Of a stretch of DNA of 53,901 nucleotides, positions 8,045 through 28,516 are shown piece after piece. Location: contig JARLHO010000123.1 of assembly GCA_031292215.1 (NCBI GenBank), positions 1-53,901 on the forward strand, in the 5' to 3' direction. A program made the position numbers and the translations under genes. The first letter of the stretch is position 1; the number at the start of each line of letters is the position of its first letter. The notes beneath the pieces were generated by a model that worked only from the letters and a program-made list of their open reading frames with translations, was not told where the DNA came from and did not search any database. The stretch is from Syntrophobacteraceae bacterium. Lineage in GTDB: Bacteria > Desulfobacterota > Syntrophobacteria > Syntrophobacterales > Syntrophobacteraceae.

Positions 8045-8050
8045 AGGTCC

Positions 8051-8075
8051 GTGAATGGGTGAATGGGTGAATGGG
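8051..8075 (+). repeat. GTGAATGG tandem repeat (three copies)
   Basis: Three back-to-back copies of GTGAATGG begin six bases after the gspF stop, and more degenerate copies follow to about 8110. The same unit recurs at 15386, 15837, 25681, 26185 and 28437. It overlaps the earliest possible start of the next gene. Confidence 0.7.
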
Positions 8076-13075: not shown

Positions 13076-15379
13076 ATGGGAACGCGCCAGTCTATTCTTG
13101 CTCTACTACTGGCAATCACATGTATTTCGTGTCAGTCAACAAATCAATGTCCAGTCGGGGTCTGTGAGCCTGCCCCTCCTCAGGCCGCTGCTCTCGGTGC
13201 ATTCTCCGCCCAGCCACAGCAACCGTCGTTTTCCCGGAAAGAATCGAGCGAGCCCCAGCCCCGATCGGCCGGCGTGAGGCCGATCGTCGCCCCGGTGCGC
13301 ACCGGCCTTTTGGCCCCTCCTGGTGAAACTGGCCCTCGCGGCGTCCCGGCGCCCACTCCGAGCGGAAAGCAACATATCGTCCTAAATTTCGACAAGGCCG
13401 ACATTGCGGAGGTGAGCAGCCAGATATTTAGCGACCAGTTAAAGGTTAGCTACGTGCTCGACCAGACGCTTCAGGGCCGCATAAGCATGTACATCGAGGG
13501 CGACTTCGACAATAAAGAATTGCTCCAAATGATCATGAGAGCCTACGAGGCCAACGGCATCAGCATCATACCCAGAAAGGGATTCTATTTCATAAAGCTT
13601 TCCCGGGAAGCCGCCGCGGCCTCCATCCCGGTCGCAAACGAGCACATGCTGGGGCAAAAAGGCGGGGGACCGCTTATCGTTATCTACCGGCTCAGATACA
13701 TTGACGCCAAGCAGGCAAGCGACCTTATCGGCCCCTTTGTCACGCCCGGCGAAAGGGTGACGGTCGACCCGGTCACCAACTCCGTCATATTCGTCGACCA
13801 GGCCAGCGGCGCCCGCACGCTCATCAGTCTTTTAAAGACAATCGATATAAATGTTTTGAAGGAAGTGAGCATGGCGGTTTTGCCGCTTCATTCGATATCT
13901 CCTCAGGATGCTGTCCAGGGGATGAAAACTCTGATGGGCCAGCTTGGAAAATTTAAGCAGAGCGCAATCGGAAGTAGCCTCGCCCTTCTGCCGCTGGAAA
14001 ATTTCGGGGGCGTTTTGATAATGGCCAGGAGCCCGGAATTGCTGGCAACCGCGGAGCAATGGATAAAGGCGATGGATGCGCAGGGACTGGGAAACCAGGA
14101 GCAAATCTACGTCTACTTCGTCCAAAACGGCATGGCGACCGATATTGCCCAGATCCTTAGCGAGGTGCTGGGTATCGGCGGAGGGCAGGCGGGCAAGGGG
14201 CAAAAGATCGTGCCGTCGGGTTCCGCGGCCAAGAGCGCTTTTGGCGGCGGTGCTTTTGGGGGGGGCAGCTCCGGGTCCAGCCCTTTTGGCGGGACCGGCG
14301 CCTCGGGTGCTTTCGGGAGCGCGGGCTCAACTACGGGTGCTGCGGGCGGGGCCGGGACCCCCGGCGGGGCAGCCGGCCAGCAGATCGGGGCGGCGATGAA
14401 GGGAAAGCCCCCCGGTTTTACGGGCGAGGTGTCGATAATATCCGATGAAGTCAACAACGCGATAGTCATTCGGGCAAACCCGGTGGATTACGCAAAACTT
14501 ATGAAAACGGTCAAAAAGCTCGACATCATCCCGCGCGCGGTGCTAATCGAGGTGATGATAGCCGAGGTCGAACTCACCAAGCAGTTCCAATTCGGGCTCG
14601 AGTATTACTTTCAGACCCACCCCGCGACCAACACCGGGTTTGGCGTCTCTTTCGGCGGTCTTTCCAACCAGGCAGCCTCTTCGAGCACCACTACCACGAC
14701 TACCGCGGGGGCATTTCCCATAAACCTCGGCGCGATTGCAAGCTCGGGGGTAGCCCTGGACTGGGTGGCCAACGCCCAGAACCTGGCGGTGCTTTTGAGC
14801 GCGCTATCGTCGAAGACAAACGTATCTGTTCTTTCCACTCCCACGCTGCTTGCCACCGACAACCAGGAAGCAACCCTTACGGTGGGCGGCGAGCAGCCTG
14901 TGCCCACGGGGTCGGTTACCGGCTACACCACCGGGTCTTCGGTTATCAGCACGATCGATTACGCGGAAACCGGGGTTATCCTCGATATTACCCCTCACAT
15001 AAACGTCGGAGGTTTGGTACGGCTCGATCTGGATTCGACGGTAAGACGCGTCAATCAGCAAACCGTGACGGTAGGAAACGGCAATACCGCCCCGACTTTT
15101 ACCGAAAGGCACATTAAGACTTCCATCCTGGCCCAGAACGGCCGCACGGTGGTAATCGGAGGAATTATCGATTCTCAGGGCTCTCAGGGCAAAAGCGGGA
15201 TCCCCTGGCTCGAAAACATCCCCATCCTCTCGCCCCTTTTTGCCGGCCACACTTCCAGTCTTGACCGGGTTGAGCTCCTTATCGCCATAACGCCTCATGT
15301 GGTCGAAAAAGCCGGCACCCAGGCGCCGGCCGAACTGCTCGACAAATTGAGAAACCTTAGAATGAGGGTTGGATATTGA
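13076..15379 (+). CDS. gspD: type II secretion outer-membrane secretin GspD
   Basis: 767 residues, normal length. A hydrophobic signal with cysteines at 16 and 19 (AITCISCQS) suggests a lipoprotein. The N0 domain begins near 100 (VLNFDKADIAEVSSQIF), N1-N3 repeats follow, and the secretin core (about 500-755) contains VLSTPTLLATDNQEATLTVG and ENIPILSPLF. Its role is the outer-membrane channel for folded exoproteins. Oddity: a Gly/Ala/Ser-rich insert of about 65 residues (375-441) lies within N3. The start follows AAGGAAGGGG. It is unusual as the last gene of the cluster, because gspD normally comes first with gspC, and gspC is not seen here. Confidence 0.92.
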   Translation: MGTRQSILALLLAITCISCQSTNQCPVGVCEPAPPQAAALGAFSAQPQQPSFSRKESSEPQPRSAGVRPIVAPVRTGLLAPPGETGPRGVPAPTPSGKQHIVLNFDKADIAEVSSQIFSDQLKVSYVLDQTLQGRISMYIEGDFDNKELLQMIMRAYEANGISIIPRKGFYFIKLSREAAAASIPVANEHMLGQKGGGPLIVIYRLRYIDAKQASDLIGPFVTPGERVTVDPVTNSVIFVDQASGARTLISLLKTIDINVLKEVSMAVLPLHSISPQDAVQGMKTLMGQLGKFKQSAIGSSLALLPLENFGGVLIMARSPELLATAEQWIKAMDAQGLGNQEQIYVYFVQNGMATDIAQILSEVLGIGGGQAGKGQKIVPSGSAAKSAFGGGAFGGGSSGSSPFGGTGASGAFGSAGSTTGAAGGAGTPGGAAGQQIGAAMKGKPPGFTGEVSIISDEVNNAIVIRANPVDYAKLMKTVKKLDIIPRAVLIEVMIAEVELTKQFQFGLEYYFQTHPATNTGFGVSFGGLSNQAASSSTTTTTTAGAFPINLGAIASSGVALDWVANAQNLAVLLSALSSKTNVSVLSTPTLLATDNQEATLTVGGEQPVPTGSVTGYTTGSSVISTIDYAETGVILDITPHINVGGLVRLDLDSTVRRVNQQTVTVGNGNTAPTFTERHIKTSILAQNGRTVVIGGIIDSQGSQGKSGIPWLENIPILSPLFAGHTSSLDRVELLIAITPHVVEKAGTQAPAELLDKLRNLRMRVGY

Positions 15380-15385
15380 AAAAGA

Positions 15386-15408
15386 GCCGGTGAGTGGGTG
15401 AATGGGCG
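15386..15408 (+). repeat. GGTGAATG-family repeat, left copy
   Basis: GCCGGTGAGTGGGTGAATGG begins a few bases after the gspD stop. It faces an inverted copy at 15837-15863, so the pair brackets the broken four-helix-bundle gene. Confidence 0.7.
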
Positions 15409-15426
15409 AAACAAAAGAGGGTTGAG

Positions 15427-15816
15427 GTGGGTTACCAGAGCTTCAAAGAGCTAAGAGTCTGGCAGGAAGCGAAGGCCCTGGCCGTAGATGTTTATTGAGC
15501 GACCTCTTCGGGGAAGCTCTACCGCGATTTTACCCTTAAGGACCAGATGCAACGATCTGCAATCTCGATTGCCGGCAATATCAGTGAGGGGTACGAAAGA
15601 CATTCGGCTGCTGAATTTCTTCGTTTTCTATACATCGCCAAGGGTTCATTGAGTGAACTTGTCACCCGGATGGAAATAGCGAGGGAGGTGGCTCTCATCG
15701 AGGAAACGTCCGCTCCGCATATAGAGGGCCGATGCGAAAAATTGGGGGCCATGCTGACAAAGCTTATTCAGGCAAAACGAAGCGGTCTGAAAAAGGCGCC
15801 GGTTCCGGTGAAGTAG
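15427..15816 (+). pseudogene. four-helix-bundle (S23/IVP-type) protein interrupted by TGA
   Basis: Read from GTG 15427, the frame gives MGYQSFKELRVWQEAKALAV, then DVY, then a TGA codon at 15496-15498. It continues in the same frame with ATSSGKLYRDFTLKDQMQRS and SIAGNISEGYERHSAAEF to TAG-type end 15816. This is the four-helix-bundle family (PF05635) related to proteins of 23S rRNA intervening sequences. Family members usually have arginine or another residue where TGA stands, and CGA to TGA is one transition. The rest is intact, so the mutation looks recent, or the window has a base error. A downstream ATG at 15547 would give only the C-terminal 89 residues. The molecular function of the family is unknown. 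Confidence 0.8.
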
Positions 15817-15836
15817 CCTGGGGCGCATCTTTTGCC

Positions 15837-15863
15837 GATTCACCCATTCACCGATTCACCGGC
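15837..15863 (-). repeat. GGTGAATG-family repeat, right (inverted) copy
   Basis: Reads on the minus strand as GCCGGTGAATCGGTGAATGG plus a partial third unit. It is inverted relative to the copy at 15386-15408. The first TGA inside it is the stop codon of the leftward aminopeptidase gene (15856-15858). Confidence 0.75.
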
Positions 15864-17397
15864 ACTTATTATTTCTAGCCAATTCAAAAAGTGTTCTAAC
15901 GCCAAAGCCGGTAGCCCCTTTGCGAGAAAACCCCGTGTCTTTGTCCGTCCACGCGGTGCCGGCGATGTCCAGGTGCGCCCAGGGGACCTGGTCGGGCACG
16001 AACTGCTTTAAAAACATCGCTGCGTGGATGGTCCCCGCGCCACGGTCCGAGGTGTTTTTCATATCTGCCACCTCGCTTTTTAGTCCTTCGAAGTAGAAGT
16101 CCCAAAGAGGCAGCGGCCAGAACCTTTCCCCGACCGAGGCGCCAATCCTTTGAATGGAGGCCACAAGGTCTTCGCGGTTTCCAAGGATCGCGGCGACCTC
16201 TTTTCCCAGGGCGACAATGGCCGCGCCGGTAAGGGTTGCGATATCGACCATGAGGGAGGGTTTAAAGCGTTTGGCCGCGTAGGCCAGCGCATCGCAGAGG
16301 ACAAGCCTGCCTTCGGCGTCGGTGCTTATGATCTCGACGGTGCGACCCGAATAGGTGCGAAAGACGTCTCCGGGTTTATAGGCCTTGCCGCCGGGCATGT
16401 TTTCGGTGCAGGGCATAATGGCTGCGACCCTTCCGGGGAGTCCGGCCGCCCCGATGGCTTCAAAGGCGCCCATAACGGCCGCTGCCCCCGCCATGTCCTG
16501 CTTCATTTCTTCCATCTTGTCCCTGGGCTTTAGCGAAATGCCCCCGGAGTCGAATGTGATGCCTTTGCCGATCATAACGAGCGCAGGATCGTTTTCGGTA
16601 CCGGGCGGGGCGTGTTCGAGGATGATAAAAAACGGCGGCTCGGCGCTGCCCGAGGCAACGGCGGCGAAGGCCCCCAGCCCCATGGAGCGCGCGGTATCGA
16701 GGTCTATTATTTCGATTTTGAACCCGAACCTGCCCGCGAGCTCTGATGCGGTTTTAACCAGAAAGGAAGGCGTTACCCGGTTGGCCGGAGATATGGTGAG
16801 CTCCCTTGCCAGCGTGATCCCGGCAACTTCGCACCGGGCAAGGGCTACAATTTCGAGAATCGTGGATTCGGGGGGCTCCGGCCACAAAAGGGCCAAAGAC
16901 TCCGGAGTTTTCGCGGCCGCCGAGTTATTGCTCTTTAATTCCTGGAACTGATGGAGCCCGGCCATAGCGCCTACGAGGGTCTCGCGCAAAAGGGCGCCAA
17001 GGGTGAGTGGGCCGATGGCCAAACTTTCATTTGCGCCGGGAAATCCTTCCAGGGCCGAAAGAGGAATTGCCGGCCGCGCAACGCCCAGGTCGCCGCACTT
17101 TCGTAGCGCCAGTGCCGAAGCGAATTTTAGCCTTTCGGTTTCGAACCGCTCGATGGGGCCAAGGCCCGCAAGGATGATGCGTGGTGTCGGCCCGCCGCCT
17201 GGCGCATAAACGACCGCCACCTCGCCTGGTTTTCCCGCGAAGTCGATGAGGGCCGCGGAATCGGCTAGCCATTTACCGGAACTGCCCAAAAATTGCTTTA
17301 GCGCCGGAAGATACCCGCACGGCTTTTCGAAGGCGAAGAAAATGAGGGCGTCGGCCTGCCACTCGGGCATGGGAGCGGTTTTCCATTCGATCTGCAT
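15856..17397 (-). CDS. pepA: leucyl aminopeptidase (M17 family)
   Basis: 513-residue cytosolic di-zinc aminopeptidase that releases N-terminal amino acids. The catalytic C-terminal half shows IGKGITFDSGGISLKP, the DKMEEMKQDMAGAA block and STDAEGRLVLCDAL. The canonical motif is NTDAEGRL, so serine replaces asparagine here. The N-terminal half is the usual poorly conserved macro-like domain. I choose the ATG at 17397 (MQIEWKT), which has GAGGATT just upstream, over an in-frame start 30 bases earlier. The stop codon lies inside a GGTGAATG repeat, so the last codons (KCR) are repeat-derived. It stands alone, divergent from serC. Confidence 0.9.
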   Translation of the reverse strand: MQIEWKTAPMPEWQADALIFFAFEKPCGYLPALKQFLGSSGKWLADSAALIDFAGKPGEVAVVYAPGGGPTPRIILAGLGPIERFETERLKFASALALRKCGDLGVARPAIPLSALEGFPGANESLAIGPLTLGALLRETLVGAMAGLHQFQELKSNNSAAAKTPESLALLWPEPPESTILEIVALARCEVAGITLARELTISPANRVTPSFLVKTASELAGRFGFKIEIIDLDTARSMGLGAFAAVASGSAEPPFFIILEHAPPGTENDPALVMIGKGITFDSGGISLKPRDKMEEMKQDMAGAAAVMGAFEAIGAAGLPGRVAAIMPCTENMPGGKAYKPGDVFRTYSGRTVEIISTDAEGRLVLCDALAYAAKRFKPSLMVDIATLTGAAIVALGKEVAAILGNREDLVASIQRIGASVGERFWPLPLWDFYFEGLKSEVADMKNTSDRGAGTIHAAMFLKQFVPDQVPWAHLDIAGTAWTDKDTGFSRKGATGFGVRTLFELARNNKCR

Positions 17398-17555
17398 TTT
17401 GAATCCTCGGGTTAGCCAATTTGACACTTTATTTTAAAATAATGTTCGAAAAACCAATTGACAAAAGAAAAGCATGGGTGAATAGGTAGTGTCAAGCCGG
17501 AAACCCCGGTTAGCAGATAAGCTTGGAAAAGAAAAGACTTACAGGAGAGGATTTA

Positions 17556-25666: not shown

Positions 25667-26260
25667 ATCCCGATCAAAGCCCGGTGAATCGGGGCGGCGT
25701 GTCGCCGCAGACGGGTTGCCAAGCCCCGACCTGCCCGACTGGCTGCGCCGGCGGCAGTTCGGACGGCAGTCCGCACCGCCTGCCGGGTGATGTATTCACA
25801 AAAAGTTTCATCTCGTTCAAACCGCATCCCCGGAGGCTGCGGCCCAGTTTGTATGAAACTTCACTTGTAGGTTGGGCTTAGCGCAGCGCAGCCCAACAAA
25901 CAGGAGCGCCGGTTGGGCCAAACTTGTAGGATGGGTGTAACGGAGTGCAACCCATCGCCTCTTGACGCATCTTTTATGAAACCTCAGATTGAAAGGGCCG
26001 GTGGCCCCCCCGCTAAATCCTTCGAAACGCCGGAATGACGCGCGCTGCCTGAAGTTTCGTCCTCGATAAAACCCCGTCTAAAAAACAGGGCGGCGCCGCT
26101 TGTATGCCTTTTCCAGCGGTTCCTTGCCGCCGGAAAGCCGGTATGCCGTTTCTTTTCTTTATCGTTTCCCTCAGTTTTTTTCGCTTCACCAATTCACCAA
26201 TTCACCGGCCCTTATTATCTTATTTTAAGATAGTAATTAGATAGATGAGGAGGACCGGCA
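25667..26260. other. gene-free stretch bracketed by GGTGAATG-type repeats
   Basis: About 590 bases with no supportable gene. Near its left edge CCGGTGAATCGG (25681-25692) and near its right edge the inverse TTCACCAATTCACCAATTCACCGGC (26185-26209) face each other. Inside are two hairpin elements (separate entry). The right copy continues into CTTATTAT, as does the copy beside the aminopeptidase. Confidence 0.5.
25871..25956. repeat. two GGTTGGGC/GGATGGGT hairpin elements
   Basis: TTGTAGGTTGGGCT...AGCCCAAC (stem 25871-25878 with 25890-25897) and TTGTAGGATGGGT...ACCCATC (stem 25930-25936 with 25950-25956) share the TTGTAGG lead and the GCGCAGCG/CGGAGTGC type loop. They belong to the palindromic TAGGTTGGG...AACCCAAC elements scattered through many bacterial genomes. 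A half copy lies near 23710. Confidence 0.6.
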
Positions 26261-28436: not shown

Positions 28437-28491
28437 GCCGGTGAATGGGTGAATGGGTGAGTGGGTTTTTCCCATTCACCCATTCACCGGC
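28437..28491. repeat. 21-bp perfect inverted repeat built of GGTGAATG units
   Basis: The left arm 28437-28457 (GCCGGTGAATGGGTGAATGG plus G) is exactly complementary to the right arm 28471-28491, with a 13-base loop and TTTT directly after. It is a GGTGAATG repeat pair with no cargo between the arms, and probably serves as the terminator of the HAD gene. Confidence 0.85.
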
Positions 28492-28516
28492 TTTTAATCG
28501 ACAACCAGGGAACACG

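Follow-up and report, generated by a model that had tools for sequence, protein, structure and literature searches.

Introduction

Genes of the Pfam family PF05635, which encode four-helix-bundle (4HB) proteins, are known, as are intervening sequences (IVSs) in rRNA genes, heptamer repeats, and systems in which paired extragenic repeats (REPINs) are associated with a transposase (RAYT). PF05635 is common; its role has been open since its discovery in rRNA insertions, and until now it has been known mainly from insertions in rRNA genes. Here we describe a PF05635 gene located between gspD and pepA in a 53,901-nucleotide stretch of DNA from a Syntrophobacteraceae bacterium (contig JARLHO010000123.1; the whole stretch is referred to as the window), where it is bracketed by inverted arrays of a short repeat. 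With a probability of about 0.62, we interpret this locus as one decaying copy of a discrete insertion element composed of a tandem array of 7–8 nt units, a 4HB gene and the array in inverted form, the 4HB protein reading its own array. Gene and repeats come and go as a unit and probably represent an overlooked kind of mobile DNA.

The closest described systems share parts of this arrangement. The IVS of Coxiella is reported to carry GACAGAT tandem heptamers that vary in number between strains; according to the same source, RNase III cuts the stems of 23S rRNA IVSs, IVSs have been suggested to be of mobile origin, and the Xanthomonas protein is a homopentamer (PMC4990558). Its resemblance to Avd, a component of diversity-generating retroelements (DGRs), has been noted (PMC10053308). 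About 70 convergent pairs of heptamer repeats were described in each of two Xanthomonas genomes, with no gene linked to them (PMC4692102), and RAYT genes adjoin their own repeats (PMC3116915). IVP genes have also been reported in cas loci and listed as CRISPR-associated (PMC3936711, PMC10910872). In a search of the open-access literature, we found no paper tying heptamer arrays to PF05635 genes in general.

The gspD/pepA locus

The stop codon of gspD and that of pepA, which is encoded on the minus strand, enclose a segment of approximately 480 bp, and the element itself spans positions 15386–15862. Its features and neighbors are as follows.

13076–15379, plus strand: gspD (secretin), left neighbor; open reading frame with a Pfam Secretin match, its stop codon directly against the element
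15379–15410, plus strand: left inverted arm, with tandem GGTGAGTG GGTGAATG at 15389–15404 and AAAGAGCC before them
15427–15816, plus strand: 4HB gene, PF05635 / TIGR02436; profile match, GTG start assumed
15496–15498, plus strand: in-frame TGA in the 4HB gene; a sense codon at this place in the same-genus copy L052
15830–15870, minus strand: right inverted arm, with GGTGAATC GGTGAATG GGTGAATC at 15837–15860 and TAAGTGCC before them
15856–17427, minus strand: pepA (leucyl aminopeptidase), right neighbor; open reading frame with a Pfam Peptidase_M17 match

The repeat unit of this family is the 8-mer GGTGARTS, present in tandem and in inverted orientation at the two ends of the element, and the sequences that precede the arrays on the left and right (AAAGAGCC and TAAGTGCC) are related to each other. 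A first-pass annotation of the window had proposed that inverted repeats bracket a four-helix-bundle gene, and the arms proved to be real: positions 15379–15410 and 15839–15870, separated by 428 nt, are 84% complementary over 32 nt, and the local inverted score of the element was 40, whereas 500 dinucleotide shuffles gave scores no higher than 27. The window contains 8 occurrences of GGTGAATG, where 1.74 would be expected; none of 100 shuffles had as many. The pepA stop codon (TGA, 15858–15856 on the minus strand) falls inside the first right-hand repeat unit, which supplies it. The enclosed gene matched PF05635 (23S_rRNA_IVP / S23) with an E value of 2.1e-31 and 110 bits, the curated cut-off being 33.8. 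Because of the single in-frame TGA, the window copy is probably dead, a pseudogene or nearly one; intact copies exist within the genus.

Filled and empty sites

We read the pepA neighborhood in ten other genomes of the genus. The gspD/pepA gap is filled in G000 and G007, with the gene in the same orientation (loci L001 and L003). In G001 (L002), the closest genome by PepA identity (81%), the gap is empty and the two stop codons abut, and in G010 it is nearly empty, containing a short spacer and one unit. G005 (L005) carries a 4HB gene reversed between the same kind of arms, an arrangement that could have arisen by recombination between the arms or equally by an insertion of its own. The remaining genomes have another gene order around pepA.

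Comparable sites were found on cyanobacterial plasmids. In Nostoc edaphicum pNe_5, a 4HB element lies between nrdB and nrdA, and Calothrix sp. NIES-4105 has this junction without the element. A site downstream of a TraM-domain gene holds arrays plus gene in Nostoc sp. C052 and N. edaphicum and gene-less inverted arrays in ATCC 53789 pNsp_c, and it is free of arrays in C057 (two plasmids) and UHCC 0926. The arrays at the ends of the 4HB elements of Nostoc and Calothrix have the units AGGGAGT, AGGGAAC and AGGGTGT. Gene and arrays are thus gained or lost together at one site, and occupancy, which the first-pass annotation had singled out for checking, varies among sister species as well as among Nostoc plasmids. 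Calothrix plasmids 1 and 2 were uninformative, as one element in a duplicated context is common to both. As a separate observation, the TraM site (L223, L225) contains different short insertions with AATTCAAAATT arrays in other Nostoc plasmids, as if it were a hotspot.

Inverted arms at PF05635 loci across phyla

PF05635 loci were collected from three sources: the genus and family, a set of 297 genomes of the window phylum, 161 of which contained PF05635, and named genomes of many phyla. Of these loci, 140 were usable. For each, the upstream flank was aligned to the inverted downstream flank, and a score of at least 30 was taken as evidence of arms. Inverted arms were present at 65% of the 140 loci. 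The same threshold was reached by 16% of loci in direct orientation, by 2% of cross-locus pairings and by 0.3% of 589 control positions offset within these loci. None of 18 loci encoding a Y1 transposase, another small mobile-element gene that served as a control, was flanked by inverted arrays. The bracketing arrangement is therefore general for PF05635 genes across bacterial phyla. Most arrays have a period of 7 (75 of 92 loci) and a smaller number a period of 8 (16 loci), and each element has its own unit, which is common to both of its arms. When heptamers were aligned by rotation, a generic unit, nGTGA(A/G)n, emerged with a score of -10.68, compared with -11.47 ± 0.05 when the order was permuted. 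In 81 of 87 loci, the upstream arm reads G-rich in the direction of the gene, and the 4HB stop codon is often followed within 10 nt by the downstream array.

These results bear on two other accounts of the arrays. An excess of heptanucleotide repeats is known from many bacterial genomes, with polymerase slippage put forward as their origin (PMC4692102, PMC4679880); the arrays could on that account be ordinary microsatellites and the 4HB gene a stable neighbor. We consider this very improbable, since slippage cannot place the same unit in inverted form on both sides of a gene, as the difference between 65% and 0.3% requires, and it leaves unexplained the Y1 control, the exclusively convergent pairs described below and the existence of empty and filled sites. 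The second account places the function of the arms in RNA: a transcript stem would be cut by RNase III, isolating the 4HB message or tuning mRNA ends, and mobility would be incidental. The complementarity of the arms, the position of arrays in 3' regions of genes in a fixed sense, and the cleavage of IVS stems cited above (PMC4990558) all accord with it. Mismatches between arms in 87 loci, however, comprised 85 G.U and 104 A.C oppositions in the sense RNA and gave no sign of selection for RNA pairing. Maintenance as an RNA stem was rejected on this test of wobble asymmetry, and the lack of a G.U preference argues for a process at the DNA level that keeps the arms alike. Moreover, many solo arrays have no partner, and the joint presence or absence of gene and arrays demands an insertion process in any case. 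An RNA-level explanation is thus unlikely.

Agreement between repeat unit and protein subfamily

Similarity between units rises with similarity between the 4HB proteins (r 0.15–0.22; none of 1000 permutations as high), and the correlation persists at r 0.15 when close pairs and family-family pairs are removed (again 0 of 1000 permutations). We compared array family with 4HB subfamily in 11 genomes of the genus, with genome-wide counts derived from pattern searches and selected stretches. AGCGGGD arrays were present in 5/5 genomes with an ELEVWKNSHA-type gene and 0/6 others, AATTARG arrays in 2/2 genomes with an SFTFALRI-type gene and 0/9 others, and GGTGARTS arrays in 4/4 genomes with a KELRVWQEAK-type gene and also in G001. 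AGCGGGD matches numbered up to more than 200 per genome, far above the content of the elements themselves, and reversed-pattern controls gave zero. The unit therefore differs between elements and tracks the 4HB subfamily. The earlier suggestion that the repeats can carry cargo gains support here in a narrower form: the cargo is not arbitrary, being the cognate 4HB gene, and other units accompany it across bacterial phyla.

Dispersed arrays and their polarity

Polarity was determined for 65 intergenic GGTGARTS arrays in the window genome and three further genomes of its genus, with genes called by a simple codon-score finder. For arrays within 30 nt behind a stop codon, the G-rich strand was in the coding sense in a ratio of 43:2, and for AGCGGGD arrays after stops the ratio was 13:0. 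This polarity is partly expected for GGTGARTS, a unit that contains TGA, but AGCGGGD, which lacks a stop codon, shows it as well. Neighboring arrays were convergent, with 16 '+-' and 0 '-+' pairs within 700 bp for GGTGARTS and a ratio of 11:2 for AGCGGGD; the copies are thus often paired, and pairing was one of the two points on which the first-pass idea of an inserting repeat family could have failed. Its proposal that the family inserts downstream of genes agrees with the placement of arrays after stop codons in fixed polarity, which is expected for elements with G-rich-inward ends inserting beside gene 3' ends. Solo arrays and gene-less convergent pairs are dispersed in genomes with a matching 4HB gene, mostly just behind stop codons. 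A flank, CTTATTAT, had been suggested as conserved; TAAGNGCC precedes several GGTGARTS-family arrays but not all of them.

Additional copies in the window had been placed at 8051, 25681/26185 and 28437. Arrays or pairs stand at 8050, 26183 and 28437, and the copy near 25681 is reduced to a single unit:

8050–8073, plus strand: solo GGTGARTS array of 3 units, directly behind a stop codon
25683–25690, plus strand: single unit, a possible left remnant of a pair with 26183–26206
26183–26206, minus strand: array of 3 units (GGTGAATT GGTGAATT GGTGAAGC) after a stop codon, with TAAGGGCC before it
28437–28492, no strand assigned: gene-less convergent pair (hairpin) of the GGTGARTS family after a stop codon; inverted score 47, shuffle maximum 24

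Between 25683 and 26206, a GGTGAATC unit faces a GGTGAAT array across 500 bp of non-coding DNA, which holds GTAGGTTGGG/GTAGGATGGG-type segments and in which no 4HB frame was seen. Two further properties of the repeats may shape polarity: the GGTGARTS unit resembles the complement of the 16S anti-Shine-Dalgarno sequence (TAAGGAGGTGATC), and inward-reading arms close all three frames with stops in 42% of cases, against 13% for outward-reading arms. At L060 (G003:C95), several GGTGARTS hairpins, each ending in GCATTTAATCCC, stand in a row downstream of a 4HB gene, and the row looks as if elements had landed inside one another.

The 4HB protein and candidate partners

The predicted fold of an intact same-genus 4HB copy (pLDDT 94) is a four-helix bundle whose best structural matches were 2gsc (XCC0516, TM 0.87) and 2rld, followed by DGR Avd (4dwl). 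Among unsaturated pairs, dN/dS was 0.06–0.15; the protein is under purifying selection and is kept in most copies. A single consensus query gave no 4HB match in phage records.

Alternatively, a different enzyme, either a RAYT/Y1 transposase or some reverse transcriptase (RT), could move the arrays, and the 4HB gene would be a passenger or helper caught between two of them. Y1_Tnp was found in 84% of the 161 4HB genomes and 57% of the others (odds ratio 4.0), and RT in 46% and 29%, respectively (odds ratio 2.0); the 4HB fold matches that of Avd, a partner of reverse transcriptase, and RAYTs are believed to mobilize REPINs in trans (PMC3116915). On the other hand, neither enzyme family was detected in 19 of the 161 4HB genomes, and a passenger would not explain why the unit tracks the 4HB subfamily. 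The Y1 transposase was rejected as owner of the arrays, given their absence from all 18 Y1 loci, and RT as an obligatory partner, given its weak association and its absence from 8 of 31 many-copy genomes. Genome repeat load may account for the excess of both families. We regard movement by such an enzyme, with the 4HB gene as its passenger or helper, as a rather doubtful explanation.

Elements in 23S rRNA genes and CRISPR loci

In G002, a member of the same genus, a PF05635 gene lies within a 23S rRNA gene between arms of GTCGGAT-type heptamers (L058), in sequence that we read as helix 45. The 23S rRNA IVS thus seems to represent one of the places where this element lands. Near the window element, Rfam gave only a chance-level match, and there was no rRNA match near the window copy.

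Plasmid-borne 4HB genes with tandem arrays also lie between cas6 and cas4 in Anabaena sp. 90 pANA02 (L214), where a type I-D cas1d is annotated next, and in Pseudanabaena galeata pPg_01 (L215). It may be that the IVP genes of cas loci are insertions and not genes of immunity. In G248, a 4HB element with inverted GAGGACT-type arms is located inside a CRISPR array with the repeat CTCTGCTTCATTGACCTGATTACGAAGGGATTGCGAC (L197/L198; G248:C1:3064000-3089000), and a nearby frame of 941 codons, at 3069356, matches RVT_1. The near-identical copies in this genome, considered for defining element boundaries, were not accepted as independent insertions; one element has been duplicated many times along with the CRISPR array.

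A model for the element

In the model that we favor, the 4HB protein would recognize its own array and promote the copying of DNA bounded by arrays, whether or not this DNA contains the gene, into new sites at gene 3' ends; the protein is an Avd-like helical bundle and is expected to form pentamers. Cutting and joining would be carried out in trans by host or other enzymes; catalysis is assigned to them because the 4HB protein has no known catalytic motif. Solo arrays and hairpins would represent non-autonomous derivatives, as REPINs are to RAYT transposases, and insertions tolerated at the tips of 23S rRNA helices would correspond to the known IVSs.

Several observations weigh against this interpretation. 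About a third of PF05635 loci lack inverted arms, the window copy itself holds a stop codon, and G001 has 36 GGTGARTS matches with no matching 4HB gene detected. The agreement between 4HB subfamily and array within the genus is partly confounded with phylogeny, as the positives fall in the clade nearest G000. No target-site duplication was evident at two empty/filled sites, where the flanks differ by substitutions and small deletions and some target sequence seems to have been replaced. No catalytic partner was identified: 8/31 many-copy genomes are without a detected RT and 2/31 without Y1. Finally, no excised or circular form was seen, and movement of the element was never observed.

A broader proposal is more tentative, and we would give it somewhat less than even odds: PF05635 may define a widespread class of selfish elements without a recognizable recombinase, in which a pentameric bundle spreads DNA bounded by arrays whose unit it reads; 23S rRNA IVSs, the short tandemly repeated repetitive (STRR) sequences of cyanobacteria and 'CRISPR-associated' IVP genes would all be by-products. 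The unit would then evolve with the protein, and heptamer repeats would be sown through bacterial genomes. If gene and arrays are one element, three separate questions are joined, namely where 23S rRNA IVSs come from, what gives rise to heptamer repeats in bacterial genomes and why IVP genes are reported in cas loci, and the element offers a direct test of the function of an Avd-like bundle without a reverse transcriptase.

Comparison with known systems

The 23S rRNA IVSs that contain an S23/IVP open reading frame (Leptospira, Coxiella, Xanthomonas, Brucella) share with the element the family PF05635/TIGR02436, the size and the complementary ends around the frame, which the window copy also has. 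They lie inside a 23S rRNA helix (9, 25 or 45), whereas the window copy is located between gspD and pepA and nearly all others between protein genes; dispersed solo and gene-less copies and the lack of a sign of RNA-stem selection are further differences.

Miniature inverted-repeat transposable elements (MITEs) are similar in being short, with inverted ends, and in being gene-less derivatives of a longer copy. They differ in that the element has no transposase donor and ends in tandem arrays; no target-site duplication was evident at the two sites compared. The likeness to DGR Avd (Bordetella phage, PDB 4dwl) lies in the four-helix-bundle fold (TM 0.73), with a sequence identity of about 10%, and one cyanobacterial 4HB member gave a weak match to Pfam bAvd (E 5e-4). 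Unlike in a DGR, no RT, template or variable repeat was noticed beside the elements; no search was aimed at these, and RT was tallied per genome only.

Cyanobacterial STRRs and the GGGAATC-type repeats of Xanthomonas and Nostoc resemble the arrays in their 7-nt period, G-rich strand and intergenic location, the window family itself having a period of 8 nt. In the published work on these repeats, by contrast, no gene is linked and an association with mobile elements was generally not found; the Xanthomonas repeats were compared by description. Like REPIN/RAYT systems, the elements comprise dispersed inverted pairs of short extragenic repeats, with each family tied to one protein lineage. They depart from them in that the protein is a four-helix bundle, with no Y1/HUH transposase in the element, variable tandem arrays take the place of a fixed palindrome at the ends, and the gene lies within the pair, at sites that also occur empty. 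No described family fits the element fully. It is probably a widespread, REPIN-like insertion element built from a 4HB gene and heptamer arrays, counting among its special cases the 23S rRNA IVSs and probably some of the heptamer repeats of cyanobacteria.
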